Shown here one piece after another: positions 8,719 to 18,374 of a stretch of DNA of 64,000 bases; the stretch's first letter is position 1, and every line of letters starts with the position of its first letter. Below the pieces are notes generated by a model. That model was not told the DNA's origin. It made no database searches and saw only the letters and a list, made by a program, of their open reading frames with translations. The stretch is from Siphonodentalium dalli (taxonomy: Eukaryota; Mollusca; Scaphopoda; Gadilida; Siphonodentaliidae): positions 66,353,897-66,417,896 of the forward strand of contig CP136063.1 of assembly GCA_032622095.1 (NCBI GenBank), in the 5' to 3' direction. A program made the position numbers and the translations under genes.

Positions 8719-8850
8719 CCCTACTGTTACGCCAGCTTTTGAAGTAACTTACCACTTTTGAAGTAGGTCTCCACTTTTGAAGTAAAAAACGCCAGCTTTT
8801 GAAGTAACTCACCACTTTTGTAATAAAATCGCCAGCTTTTGTAGTATCCA

Positions 8851-9560
8851 CACCGGTAATCGACCATATGCATGTGATATGGTTCGAATATCCTTCAGTC
8901 ATACCAACACAAGAGAAATCACACAGTTAGTCGCCCATACGCGTGTGACGTGTACCAAAAGGCACTTAGTGAGTCCGGTTCCGTGACAAAAGAATCCACA
9001 CAGGAAATTAACCATATGCATGTGACGTGGTTCGAATATCATTCAGTCATACCAACACAAGAGAAGTCACGCAGTCAATCGCCCATACGCATGTGACTTG
9101 TACCAAAGGGCACTTAGTGAGTCCGGTTCCGTGACAAAAGAATCCACACCGGTAATCGACCATATGCATGTGACGAGGTTCGAATATCCTTCAGTCATAC
9201 CAAGACAAGAGAAATCACACAGTCAATCGCCCATACACGTGTGACGTGTACCAAAAGGCACTTAGAGAGTCCGGTTCCGTGACAAAAGAATCCACACCGC
9301 TAATCGACCATATGCATGTGACGAGGTTCGAATATCCTTCAGTCATACCAACACAAGGGAAATCACAGTCTATCGCCCATACGCGCGTGACGTGTACCAA
9401 AAGGCACTTAGTGAGACCGGTTCCGTGACAAAAAGAATCCACACCGGTAATCGACCATATGCATGTGACGAGGTTCGAATAGCCTTCCGTCATAACAGCA
9501 TAAGATAATTTATAGAGTCAATCGCCCATATAAGTGTGACGTGTACCGAGCGGCATTTAG
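8851..9560 (+). repeat. 147-bp array, left arm of FB-1, made of decayed zinc fingers
   Basis: About five copies, phased by 'GTGACGTGTACC' near 8945, 9091, 9240, 9387 and 9536. In one frame a unit reads HTGNRPYACD-VVRISFSHTN, in the other [19 protein letters not shown]: two successive C2H2 fingers with the linker intact, but with the second Cys changed to Val or Tyr and the His pair lost. Two fingers would be 168 bp, so about 21 bp has been lost per unit. It does not encode a working protein. Confidence 0.8.
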
Positions 9561-9599
9561 TGAGTCCGTTTCCCTGCCTAATCATATGAACACACATAG

Positions 9600-9745
9600 G
9601 TGATCAATCATACGAGTATATAAGATTGTTCCCAGTCAGCCTGACAACCCACACTATTGAGTGCCCTTACAAGTGCGACCGTTGTCAGAAGAAGTTCGAT
9701 GTTACATTGAGTCAGACAAGACTGAAGACGTTTTGTCAGTAACAT
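9600..9745 (+). pseudogene. Zinc-finger relic in left arm of FB-1
   Basis: Reads CPYKCDRCQKKFDVTLSQ and then stops near 9743. Just upstream, 'ACACACATAGGTGATCAATC' matches the decayed tail behind ZNF5 at about 62793. It is the inverted counterpart of the minus-strand relic at 11805-11906. Confidence 0.7.
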
Positions 9746-10215
9746 GTCAGTAACATGACAACATATATAGTTTCTCGAAATTAGGTGATGTATTAGTTCC
9801 AACGGAAAATAGTTGGTATATTTATTATTGGCCTCACTTATAATTGCATATTCGTACCCTCGAAATTAGGTGACCCGACGCGTTAGGGACAGCTGAAAAT
9901 GTTTGGTTTATTAGATTCGTCTCTGGAAGGCGACTCGTCTCTGGAAGGCGACATTAACAACAATTTTCAATCATTAAAATTATGTCACATAACCGAAGTA
10001 TTATAACTACGTCAAACGTGGCCAGCTATAAAACACGGGAGCCAGTAATGTGTTGTGTGGAAACCGTTGGGTTCACATACACTCTGATGATTGAGTATAT
10101 AAAATAACGGATTCGATGGCATTATGTCGCTATACAGGGAAAGTTAAACTTTCAAATCTCAATGTTCTTGATGCCAAAAGGTTCAGTCTCCTTTCAAAAT
10201 TTATTCAACACAATA

Positions 10216-14360: not shown

Positions 14361-16627
14361 TATAAGTGTGACGTGTACCGAACGGCATTTAGTGCGTCCG
14401 TTTCCCTGCCTAATCATATGAACACACATAGGTGATCAATCATACGAGTATATAAGATTGTTCCCAGTCAGCCTGACAACCCACACTATTGAGTGCCCTT
14501 ACAAGTGCGACCGTTGTCAGAAGAAGTTCGATGTTACATTGAGTCAGACAAGACTGAAGACGTTTTGTCAGTAACATGTCAGTAACATGACAACATATAT
14601 AGTTTCTCGAAATTAGGTGATGTATTAGTTCCAACGGAAAATAGTTGGTATATTTATTATTGGCCTCACTTATAATTGCATATTCGTACCCTCGAAATTA
14701 GGTGACCCGACGCGTTAGGGACAGCAGAAAATGTTTGGTTTATTAGATTCGTCTCTGGAAGGCGACATTAACAACAATTTTCAATCATTAAAATTATGTC
14801 ACATAACCGAAGTATTATAACTACGTCAAACGTGGCCAGCTATAAAACACGGGAGCCAGTAATGTGTTGTGTGGAAACCGTTGGGTCTACATACACTCTG
14901 ATGATTGGGTATATAAAATAACGGATTCGGTGGCATTATGTCGCTATACAGGGAAAGTTAAACTTTCAAATCTCAATGTTCTTGATGCTAAAAGGTTCAG
15001 TCGCCTTTCAAAATTTATTCAACAGAATATACGAATACAATTAATTATTTTATTGTCAATTGTCAGGCACAGCAATACAAAATGAAACGCATAACAAAAT
15101 TAAGAATGAATGGAACGATGTTGTTGATGTAGTTAAATAATAATTAGTCAAATTTATCCTCAACCTCCCCTTAGACGCTATAGTTCTTGAATAGTTATGT
15201 ATAACATTGTATAGCTTGATCCCTTATCGCCTCTCATCCACATCAACAATTCTGCTATCTGAATCTGTTTTGTTTATTATGGTCAATAAATGAAATCAAT
15301 ATTCTATCACGAAGACAATATATGATGGTATACATATTTACTATTGCTATGTTGCACCTATCAATTGGGGTCAGACTAAGTGGTGTACTATAGTCAGGGA
15401 AGGTTGAGGTGTCTCACGGACTGATAACTTAACATAAAAACAATGGTGAATTATTTTGAGACATCATTGGTCGATCATGATTGATATCTAGATCTACAAT
15501 GTAGCTCATAATTACTACTCCCCTCATTTTCAACTACGTTAGTTATAAACGCCCAGACCGTGCGCTGCTCGCAATGTGGTAACCCCTTTCCACAAAAAAA
15601 AACTAAATACCAAATGCAGAACAAAATTACGACAATGAATTTATTGATATACTGCAAACCATCGGTGCACGCTGGGATTGATGAGCAATTATGTATAACA
15701 CTAAATAGAATATATGCCAGTCCCTTCCCAATAGTATTGCCCTCGACTTACCAGCAACTTACCGTAACATACCTGCCCTATTCAGGGCAACACCAGTTAC
15801 TGGCGATTGTGGCCAATGTTGACACCTCCCACTCGCAGAGGACTCACATTCAACAATGCAATCGCAGGCATAGCTACCACATGGTATAATACACGCTCGG
15901 AACACGGGCTCCACTGGCCGCCATGGAGAATCACCACAACATAACGCCTGAGCACTAAATGTTATGATAAAACATTACAACTGTAGCGCCCAAAGAGGCC
16001 GGATCTACACAGCGATATGGTATGCGATTTTCTTGTTATCCTGTTCCCTCTTTTGAAGGTTCTAGAGCTGTCACGAAGTCTCGAACGATATAACACAATC
16101 CCGTAACAGACGTGAGTATGTTCAGTAATTTAGTTTGTAATTCCAGGAACCATTATCTCTCGTTATTAAAGTGTCCAAAGGAGATTGTATTCCAGTTGTA
16201 AATTGAATGAACATCTTTGACTTATTATTCTGTAGCACGTGCATGATAATATTATTCTAACTGGGACAATGACTCGTGAAATTATGCAGAATCGGTGTCT
16301 TGTTGTATGACATTCTTAATCACCTGACATCTGGACTTTCGTCCTTTGTTTCATAGTTAGCCAATCAGAATGAACCACGTTAAAAAGAAAATGGACTTAT
16401 TTATCATTATTGATAATCGACTATAAAATTACAAAAAGGAGACTGAACCATTAGGCACCAGGAACATTGCGAATTGGAAGTTTGACATAGGACTGTTCTT
16501 CCAAAGAAGAGGACAAATAGACCAGCTATTTTCCGTTGTAACTGATACATTTGTCACGTCCCCCAATTTTGAGGAAATATACATGTTGCCATGTTACTGG
16601 ACTGACAGAACGTCTTCAGACACACAT

Positions 16628-16729
16628 CTTGTCACCAGCGTGGGTTCTCTTATATATTGTAAGACTCGCGGTCACGGCGAACTTCTTCTAACAAACGTCG
16701 CACCTATAAGGTCGGTCACCAGTGTGGAT
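16628..16729 (-). pseudogene. Zinc-finger relic in right arm of FB-2, best preserved
   Basis: Minus strand: [13 protein letters not shown], stop, KKFAVTASLTIYKRTHAGD. Here both Cys, the Phe, the Leu and the last His of a C2H2 finger are kept along with the TGDRPY linker. Only one TAG and a His-to-Tyr change break it. This is the clearest evidence that the arm sequence came from the local ZNF family. Confidence 0.8.
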
Positions 16730-16789
16730 CGTCGGGTTGACGGACAGACTGGGAACAACATTGCATACTCGTATGATTGACCACCTATG

Positions 16790-18110
16790 TGTTCTCATAT
16801 GCTTAGGCAAGGAACCGGACTAACTAAATGCCTTTCTGGTAAACGTCACACGTGTATGGGCGATTGACTGTGTGATTTCTCTGGTGTTGGTATGATTGGA
16901 GGCTATTCAAACCACGTCACACTCGTATGGTCGATTACTTGTGTGGATTCTTTTTGTCACGGAACCGGACTCACTAAGTGCCTTTTGGTACAAGTCACAC
17001 GTGTATGGGCGATTGCCTGTGTGATTTCTTTTGTGTTGGTTTGATTGGAGGCTATTCAAACCACGTCACACTCGTATGGTCGATTACCTGTGTGGATTCT
17101 TTTTGTCACGGAACCGGACTCACTACGTGCCTTTTGGTACACGTCACACCACACGTGTATGGGCGATTGACTGTATGATTTATCTTGTGTTAGTATGACT
17201 CAAAGCTATTCAAACCACGTCACACTCGTATGGTCGATCACCTGTGTGGAATCTTTTGTCACGGAACCGGACTCACTAAGTGCCTTTTGGTACAAGTCAC
17301 ACATGTATGGGCGATTGACTGTGTGATTTCTTTTGTGTTGGTTTGATTGGAGGCTATTCAAACCACGTCACACTCGTATGGTCGATTACCTGTGTGGATT
17401 CTTTTTGTCACGGAACCGGACTCACTAAGTGCCTTTTGGTACACGTCACACGTGTATGGGCGATTGACTGTATGATTTATCTTGTGTTGGTATGACTCAA
17501 AGCTATTCAAACCACGTCACACTCGTATGGTCGATCACCTGTGTGGAATCTTTTGTCACGGAATCGGACTCACTAAGTGCCTTTTGGTACAAGTCACACG
17601 TGTATGGGCGATTGACTGTGATTTCTCTTGTGTTGGTACGATTGGAGGCTATTCAAACCACGTCACACTCGTATGGTCGATTACCTGTGTGGAATCTTTT
17701 GTCATGCAACCGGACTCACTAGGTGCCTTTTGGTACACGTCACGTATGGGCGATTGACTATGATTTATCTTGTGTTGGTATGACTCAAAGCTATTCAAAC
17801 CACGTCACACTCGTATGGTCGATCACCTGTGTGGAATCTTTTGTCACGGAACCGGACTCACTAAGTGCCTTTTGGTACAAATCACACGTGTATGGGCGAT
17901 TGACTGTGATTTATCTTGTGTTGGTACGATTGGAGGCTATTCAAACCACGTCACACTCGTATGGTCGATCACCTGTGTGGAATCTTTTGTCACGGAACCG
18001 GACTCACTAAGTGCCTTTTGGTACACGTCACACGTGTATGGGCGATTGACTGTGATTTCTCTTGTGTTGGCATGACTGAAAGCTATTCAAACCACGTCAC
18101 ACTCGTATGG
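16790..18110 (-). repeat. 147-bp finger-derived array, right arm of FB-2
   Basis: About nine copies, phased by 'GTATGGGCGATTG' near 16853, 17005, 17157, 17306, 17455, 17602, 17744, 17891 and 18037. Neighbouring copies are very similar, in places as two-unit blocks, suggesting homogenisation by unequal exchange. Overlapping ORFs of 60-120 codons run through it but follow the repeat, not a gene. Confidence 0.8.
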
Positions 18111-18374
18111 GCGATAGCCACTATTGATTATCGGGTTGACTTTGTCATGAAAATCGTTCAGCGCCCGTCAAAATTTATTGAGTGGAGACCTAGTTTTTTT
18201 ACTACAAAAGCTGTCGTTTTTTACTTAAAAAGCGGAGACCTCACTTTACTACAAAAGCTGGCGATTTTATTACAAAAGTGGTGAGTTACTTCAAAAGCTG
18301 GCGTTTTTTACTTCAAAAGTGGAGACCTACTTCAAAAGTGGTAAGTTACTTCAAAAGCTGGCGTAACACCCTAC

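Follow-up and report, generated by a model that had tools for sequence, protein, structure and literature searches.

Paired foldback elements in a scaphopod genome whose inverted arms very probably consist largely of captured, decayed C2H2 zinc-finger gene DNA

We analyzed a stretch of 64,000 nucleotides from the scaphopod mollusc Siphonodentalium dalli (GenBank assembly GCA_032622095.1, contig CP136063.1; hereafter the window), which carries at 8725-18368 two foldback elements arranged head to tail, FB-1 (8725-13145) and FB-2 (13152-18368). We consider it highly probable that these are non-autonomous members of a single family of cut-and-paste DNA transposons, and that their arms are largely captured DNA from the degenerate 3′ portion of a C2H2 zinc-finger (ZNF) gene belonging to the local TGDRPY family.

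Both elements start with TGTTACGCC and finish with GGCGTAACA, and the starting sequence is found at all four ends, at 8725 (plus), 13137 (minus), 13152 (plus) and 18360 (minus). All three junctions (8719-8724, 13146-13151 and 18369-18374) carry the hexamer CCCTAC, so that the termini and flanks are as an earlier note on this DNA had described them. An additional, fifth match to TGTTACGCC at 3605 (minus), outside the elements, is read as chance, because 0.39 such matches are expected per window and the outer domain has no match outside the elements. With long inverted arms, internal tandem repeats, modular domains and a flanking target-site duplication, the pair has the makeup of foldback elements, of which FB in Drosophila and TU in sea urchin are also known for modular arms. 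From the outside in, the arms run from an outer domain of 121-243 bp through an array of ~147-bp units to an inner part that holds finger relics and then non-finger DNA. The features are as follows:

8719..8724, plus strand: target-site duplication copy 1, CCCTAC (direct reading; single copy CTCTAC at the unoccupied paralogous site)
8725..13145, plus strand: FB-1, complete foldback element, 4421 bp (ends TGTTACGCC...GGCGTAACA)
8725..8845, plus strand: FB-1 left outer domain, six CTTTTGWA modules at a spacing of 19-22 bp, without finger signal
8847..9580, plus strand: FB-1 left array, 5 units of ~147 bp, decayed finger pairs of left type (finger profile, unit matches)
9581..10200, plus strand: FB-1 left inner arm, weak finger signal and then non-finger arm DNA (10.0 bits, 0/200 shuffles as high)
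10201..11604, unstranded: FB-1 loop, without finger signal, 97.1% identity to the FB-2 loop (profile and alignment)
11605..11982, minus strand: FB-1 right inner arm, well-preserved finger relic at ~11809-11911 (E 3.8e-13)
11983..12865, minus strand: FB-1 right array, 6 units (unit matches)
12903..13145, minus strand: FB-1 right outer domain (sequence comparison)
13146..13151, plus strand: target-site duplication copy 2, CCCTAC, common to FB-1 and FB-2 (direct reading)
13152..18368, plus strand: FB-2, complete foldback element, 5217 bp (terminal sequences)
13152..13394, plus strand: FB-2 left outer domain, palindrome with the FB-1 right outer domain (sequence comparison)
13408..13976, plus strand: FB-2 left array units 1-4, of right type and taken to have been converted from right-arm sequence (unit identities)
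13979..14412, plus strand: FB-2 left array units 5-7, left-type (unit identities to FB-1 left)
14413..15011, plus strand: FB-2 left inner arm, includes part of the stretch matching the ZNF tail, 14334-14497 (alignment)
15012..16429, unstranded: FB-2 loop (profile, Pfam search of open reading frame (ORF) 15512-15886)
16430..16803, minus strand: FB-2 right inner arm, best finger relic at 16632-16734 (E 1.4e-14)
16804..18126, minus strand: FB-2 right array, 9 units (unit matches)
18181..18368, minus strand: FB-2 right outer domain (sequence comparison)
18369..18374, plus strand: target-site duplication copy 3, CCCTAC (direct reading)
22846..23235, minus strand: paralogous unoccupied insertion site (343/392 aligned columns identical across the junction)
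61631..62659, plus strand: zinc-finger ORF; among window sequences, its 3′ tail came out nearest to the arms (alignment)
62694..62873, plus strand: decayed finger tail of ORF 61631-62659, 75-77% identical to the arms (alignment)

Self-alignment gives 1323 bp at 88.7% for the arms of FB-2, and 1035 bp at 79.6% plus an outer 122 bp at 98.4% for those of FB-1; weaker similarity extends inward to ~10194/11612 in FB-1 and 15008/16435 in FB-2. CTTTTGWA modules in the outer domains are mostly spaced at 18-28 bp and, counted with one fixed motif, number 6 in FB-1 left, 9 in FB-1 right, 10 in FB-2 left and 7 in FB-2 right. There are 28 unit matches, 27 in the arrays (5, 6, 7 and 9 in FB-1 left, FB-1 right, FB-2 left and FB-2 right, one of them partial at 127 bp) and one, weak, in an inner arm. 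Between the two elements, the loops of ~1.4 kb are identical at 1363/1404 positions, the left inner parts at 98.8% (592/599) and the right inner parts at 97.9% (367/375). One loop ORF (15512-15886) and one ORF at the loop's inner edge were searched against Pfam, neither with a match. The arms hold open frames of 100-124 amino acids, the listed ones on the strand opposite to the fingers, and we saw no sign that the arms are coding.

The finger content of the arms was assessed with a DNA profile made from 33 intact fingers of ORFs in the window and run over the whole window at E ≤ 1e-3. This gave 89 matches, partly overlapping, 53 of them within the elements, and their orientation mirrors the fold. 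All matches in the left arms (9/9 in FB-1, 13/13 in FB-2) are on the plus strand and all those in the right arms (13/13 and 18/18) on the minus strand, and neither loop has a match at this threshold. The matches cover 700/1476 bp and 918/1541 bp of the left and right arms of FB-1, and 949/1860 bp and 1228/1939 bp of those of FB-2. The claim of the earlier note that finger DNA makes up most of each arm is thereby upheld for FB-1 right (60%), FB-2 right (63%) and FB-2 left (51%), and falls short for FB-1 left (47%).

Each part of the elements was then scored against 200 dinucleotide shuffles, and its reversed sequence was scored as well. None of the 200 shuffles equaled the real score in any of the eight finger-bearing arm parts, and the reversed sequence gave a score of 0 for each of them. 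The four arrays reach 42.5-43.4 bits against a shuffle maximum of 12.7, and the right inner parts 44.4 and 49.0 bits; the left inner parts are the weakest of the eight, at 10.0 bits each against shuffle maxima of 6.5 and 5.2. The real scores of the loops were reached by 29/200 and 16/200 shuffles, which amounts to no finger signal, and the finger score of the four outer domains (outermost 121-243 bp) is 0. The outer 121-243 bp is a separate module of short repeats. The best relic, in the FB-2 right inner arm on the minus strand at 16632-16734 (E 1.4e-14), translates as HTGDRPYRCDVC, a stop and KKFAVTASLTIYKRTHAGDK, and the finger RCDVC-stop-KKFAVTASLT that had been noted earlier in FB-2 was located here. 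The arrays and inner relics of the arms are on these data of finger origin, and the comparison with shuffled sequence, which the earlier note had named as a test of the similarity, is passed at the DNA level.

As to the source of this DNA, eight finger-bearing stretches outside the elements were compared with the four arms. The tail 3′ of ORF 61631-62659, a frame with 10 Pfam zf-C2H2 stretches, gave 101-131 bits over 162-179 columns, as against 28-49 bits for the other seven. A 29-nt exact run, ACACACATAGGTGATCAATCATACGAGTA, is common to the arms and this tail, and the longest exact run with the arms is at most 16 nt at other ZNF loci and 11-12 nt in unrelated parts of the window. Nine 21-mers are likewise common to the arms and the tail, with none shared by six other finger-bearing loci. 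A QSYEY relic is found in FB-1 right, FB-2 right, FB-2 left and the ZNF tail, and the change of the second cysteine to tyrosine (CDVY) is common to the arms and the tail. The tail lies directly behind the intact array and is shifted by only 9 bp from its 84-bp phase, and it is therefore most simply taken as native gene DNA rather than an inserted piece of transposon. The captured DNA is thus assigned to the degenerate 3′ terminus of a gene in the 61631-62659 lineage. The tie to the local ZNF family that had earlier been drawn from a linker motif now has a specific DNA match behind it, which is the stronger link. The description of the arm modules as host ZNF exons needs adjusting: the module itself is a shortened, decayed finger pair, and "host ZNF exon" therefore denotes the degenerate 3′ terminus of a gene of this kind. 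A search with the protein of this ZNF at 61.6 kb found identities of 32-59% among the best 120 of 4213 finger proteins, the named ones coming from many kinds of animals, and TGDRPYQCD occurs in none of those 120. Further finger relics lie outside the larger finger ORFs at 4040-4188 (plus, E 1e-29) and 58965-59109 (minus, E 1e-26).

The units themselves carry a record of decay. Both CD codons were located in 25 of the 28 unit matches, the three others being without one motif. The distance between them is 71 bp in 16 units, 69 bp in 7, 68 bp in 1 and 76 bp in 1, and never 84 bp. The reading frame, too, is disrupted by the shortening in 18 of these units; the 69-bp class, which is 15 bp short, stays in frame, and in the alignment an additional gap of 2 bases is seen in most units of this class. 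Given that the shortening is found in all 25 measurable units, the fingers probably decayed before the array grew, the pair having been dead by the time it was amplified.

The insertion site can be read from a paralogous segment. The left flank, one hexamer and the right flank align with 23235-22846 (minus), 343/392 columns being identical across the junction, and at this unoccupied site the hexamer is present once, as CTCTAC. The single hexamer there marks the elements, as read from the DNA, as inserts with a 6-bp target duplication. The end of the insert lies ~215 bp upstream of the likely start codon of zinc-finger ORF 18551-19570. The pair was inserted just upstream of a stretch at 18388-18462 that has 78% over 76 columns in common with 61377-61451, the two standing upstream of two ZNF ORFs; this stretch is perhaps a conserved promoter piece. 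An inverted pair at 20633-21293 and 22110-22773 (97.9% over 665 columns) adjoins the unoccupied site.

Comparison of individual units suggests how the arms have stayed alike. Counted from the tip, units 1-4 of FB-2 left match units 1-4 of FB-2 right in order, at 98, 98, 99 and 98%, whereas unit 5 reaches at most 90% with any FB-2 right unit. Units 5, 6 and 7 of FB-2 left instead match units 3, 4 and 5 of FB-1 left at 99, 96 and 96%, with unit 6 at 97% to FB-1 left unit 3. A unit tree (without printed support values) pairs the same copies as the identity table. In blocks along the FB-2 arms, 13444-13943 is 97-100% alike and the next blocks 88, 95, 85, 86 and 80%; block 13344-13443 drops to 54/94, at a gap in the boundary between outer domain and array. 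In FB-1 the outer 121 bp of the arms are near-identical (119/120 aligned) and the next blocks, out to 9862, are 67-90% alike. The four tips are identical over 121 bp except at two variable sites, where FB-1 left agrees with FB-2 right, and the FB-1 right tip with that of FB-2 left. The outer domains of FB-1 right and FB-2 left form a palindrome of 243+6+243 bp whose arms are 98% complementary, a likely substrate for further copying. The unit identities make the FB-2 left arm a mosaic, from which we take it that the arms copy each other, and the pattern would be accounted for by inverted gene conversion proceeding from the tips inward.

Put together, the proposed history would begin with the capture of a single ZNF fragment, which may then have given rise to both arms by inversion or by copying from one arm to the other. 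After decay the captured fragment would have been amplified by unequal exchange, and the arms would convert one another starting at the tips. The present pair would go back to two successive insertions at one hexamer, a short way upstream of a zinc-finger gene. The elements, probably non-autonomous, would be mobilized by a transposase encoded elsewhere in the genome, for which the outer 121-243 bp with their repeated modules are probable recognition or binding sites.

Several points weigh against this history. The common shortening of the units could also be explained by later homogenization of the arrays, and the identity of the loops would also fit an old duplication in tandem at this site. 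Inside the elements we found no transposase. The unoccupied site is a paralogous segment, 12% diverged and with one base of the hexamer changed, and not the other allele; there are only two copies at a single insertion point, so that the mobility of the family rests on that site. The ZNF tail differs from the arms by 23-25% and is therefore a relative of the source rather than its proven parent. In the unit comparison of the FB-2 arms the margin is small, 98-99% against a next best of 97% in each row, and the FB-2 arms still agree at 95% in block 14044-14142, which is beyond the point where copying is supposed to have stopped.

Other explanations differ in how much of the evidence they can carry. 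Were the finger similarity of the 147-bp unit due to chance or composition, the arms would be ordinary foldback satellite modules. The single units are indeed badly decayed, and the translated arm stretches have stops in all three frames; against this stand E values down to 1.4e-14, the mirrored strands, the shuffle and reversed-sequence controls in all eight parts and the specific match to one ZNF tail, and we rejected this explanation, whose probability we regard as negligible. It is very unlikely that the transposon ends landed in or around inverted zinc-finger pseudogenes already present at the site, such that the finger DNA is local and was never mobile. The elements do sit within a zinc-finger gene cluster, close upstream of a likely ZNF start codon, but the unoccupied site joins the flanks by one hexamer with no finger DNA between them, and each element has finger arrays inside its own termini, with a hexamer separating the two. 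Zinc fingers occur in some transposases, and the finger DNA could on that account stem not from a host gene but from an ancestral gene of the transposon itself, one for a C2H2-finger transposase or accessory protein. That no high-identity parent copy was identified would suit such an origin, which we nonetheless hold to be unlikely, as the tail that the relics match belongs to a local ORF with multiple zf-C2H2 stretches and shares with them the QSYEY residues and the long exact run.

A tandem duplication of one inserted element, in place of two insertions into the same hexamer, is a real possibility, if not the one we favor, and is compatible with the zinc-finger origin of the arms. The same hexamer at three junctions, the near-identity of the loops and the crosswise pairing of the tips at the two variable sites all speak for it. 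The arrays, however, differ in unit number and order, and a 6-bp unit offers little for unequal exchange to act on. For the captured arms a function may also be imagined. Arm transcripts might form long double-stranded RNA and give small RNAs directed at the source zinc-finger genes, as a counter-defense of the transposon against the host zinc-finger family. This is prompted by the 29-nt run and nine 21-mers held in common with one ZNF tail and by the insertion ~215 bp upstream of a likely ZNF start codon, and we regard it as a highly doubtful conjecture.

The 6-bp duplication and TG..CA ends (TGTTACGCC...GGCGTAACA), at one insertion point and in copies without a transposase, suggest a mover of the IS3EU/GingerRoot type. 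Dada superfamily elements also make 6-bp duplications. GingerRoot elements are described as making 6-bp duplications with mostly TA..TA and occasionally TG..CA termini; membership rests on the transposase, which is absent here, and the available text of that source does not mention a foldback form (PMC10045372). Most foldbacks are assigned to the Mutator superfamily (PMC4079207), and foldbacks and Mutator-like elements (MULEs) are given duplications of 8-11 bp (PMC4079207, PMC3310237, PMC3169594). The 6 bp seen here at one insertion point lie outside that range, although this is no strict exclusion, with MuDR together with its prokaryotic relative IS256 listed at 4 to 10 bp, and Polinton at 6 bp (PMC10045372). 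The 7-bp duplications of the P superfamily, to which Galileo belongs, differ from the 6 bp found here.

Among known systems, Tetris of Drosophila virilis is like FB-1 and FB-2 in having long arms of an outermost domain, a middle tandem array of long units (~220 bp in Tetris) and an inner domain, around a non-coding middle, with no transposase found and a unit number that varies between copies; it is unlike them in its target duplications of 8-10 bp, for which its authors suggest Mutator, and in a repeat suggested to come from its own terminal sequence rather than a host gene (PMC4079207). Galileo of Drosophila shares long arms whose variation comes from the number of tandem repeats, from recruited sequence and from exchange among copies, but has 7-bp duplications and recruits its own internal DNA, finger DNA going unmentioned in the available portion of the paper (PMC3573991). 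Tm1 Mutator/Foldback elements of root-knot nematodes have composite arms with internal repeats of ~14 bp and non-autonomous members, but mostly 9-bp duplications, and the text at hand does not report the arms as gene-derived (PMC3169594). Plant Pack-MULEs resemble our elements in carrying acquired sequence in extended terminal inverted repeats (TIRs), but belong to the Mutator superfamily with duplications of 9-11 bp, and tandem amplification of a captured piece is not described in the accessible part of that account (PMC3310237). Animal Pack-TIRs, including the FB element Ssk-FB4, are TIR transposons that carry captured host DNA; there, as we read the account, the captured DNA is flanked by TIRs and does not itself form the inverted arms (PMC8277862). 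In FB-1 and FB-2 the finger DNA is in the arms and not the loop, and, where a Pack-TIR has a host parent outside the element, the window offers a specific relative at 75-77% rather than an unambiguous parent. Judged by titles and abstract openings, none of the papers listed in searches of the open-licence literature describes a foldback with zinc-finger arms. The tip sequence has 0 matches in viral contigs and 2 stretches in bacterial genomes, about what chance would give by our own estimate for a 19-mer in 257 Gb, in searches that may have left out records of the window's own genome.

The rest of the window contains further repeats. A 93-bp tandem array at 5311-5879 (6 copies, 88% matches) shows no relation to the elements when FB-2 is compared with the window. 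A probable long terminal repeat (LTR) retrotransposon occupies 44695-49076, with direct repeats at 44695-45443 and 48321-49076 at 95.5% and ORFs between them that match gag, aspartic protease and RNase H; none of 552 candidates matched when the gag-like ORF was used as query. A unit of ~2.85-2.94 kb occurs three times in tandem at 33435-42525; its copies are 97-99% alike and contain repeated ORFs of 106-135 amino acids, two of which were tested and had no Pfam match. A dispersed family is found at 7270-8136 and near 26815, 27600-27950, 49200-49500, 56955 and 59870-60854, its matches being ~110-306 bp long, in both orientations and at roughly 79-97% identity. ARAGORN found no tRNA in the window, and there was no Rfam match at gathering score.

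As far as we know, the origin of foldback arms and of their tandem modules is largely unsettled, and the accounts of Tetris and Galileo favor a derivation from terminal or internal DNA of the element itself (PMC4079207, PMC3573991). Here the source of the modules can be read: a decaying finger array would have been taken up and become the arms of an element, and, because a finger array is itself a tandem repeat, it would be prone to further amplification. The mosaic of FB-2 left offers a concrete picture of how copying unit by unit may keep foldback arms similar. Should further copies bear out the 6-bp duplication, the family would represent a foldback outside the Mutator and P superfamilies.

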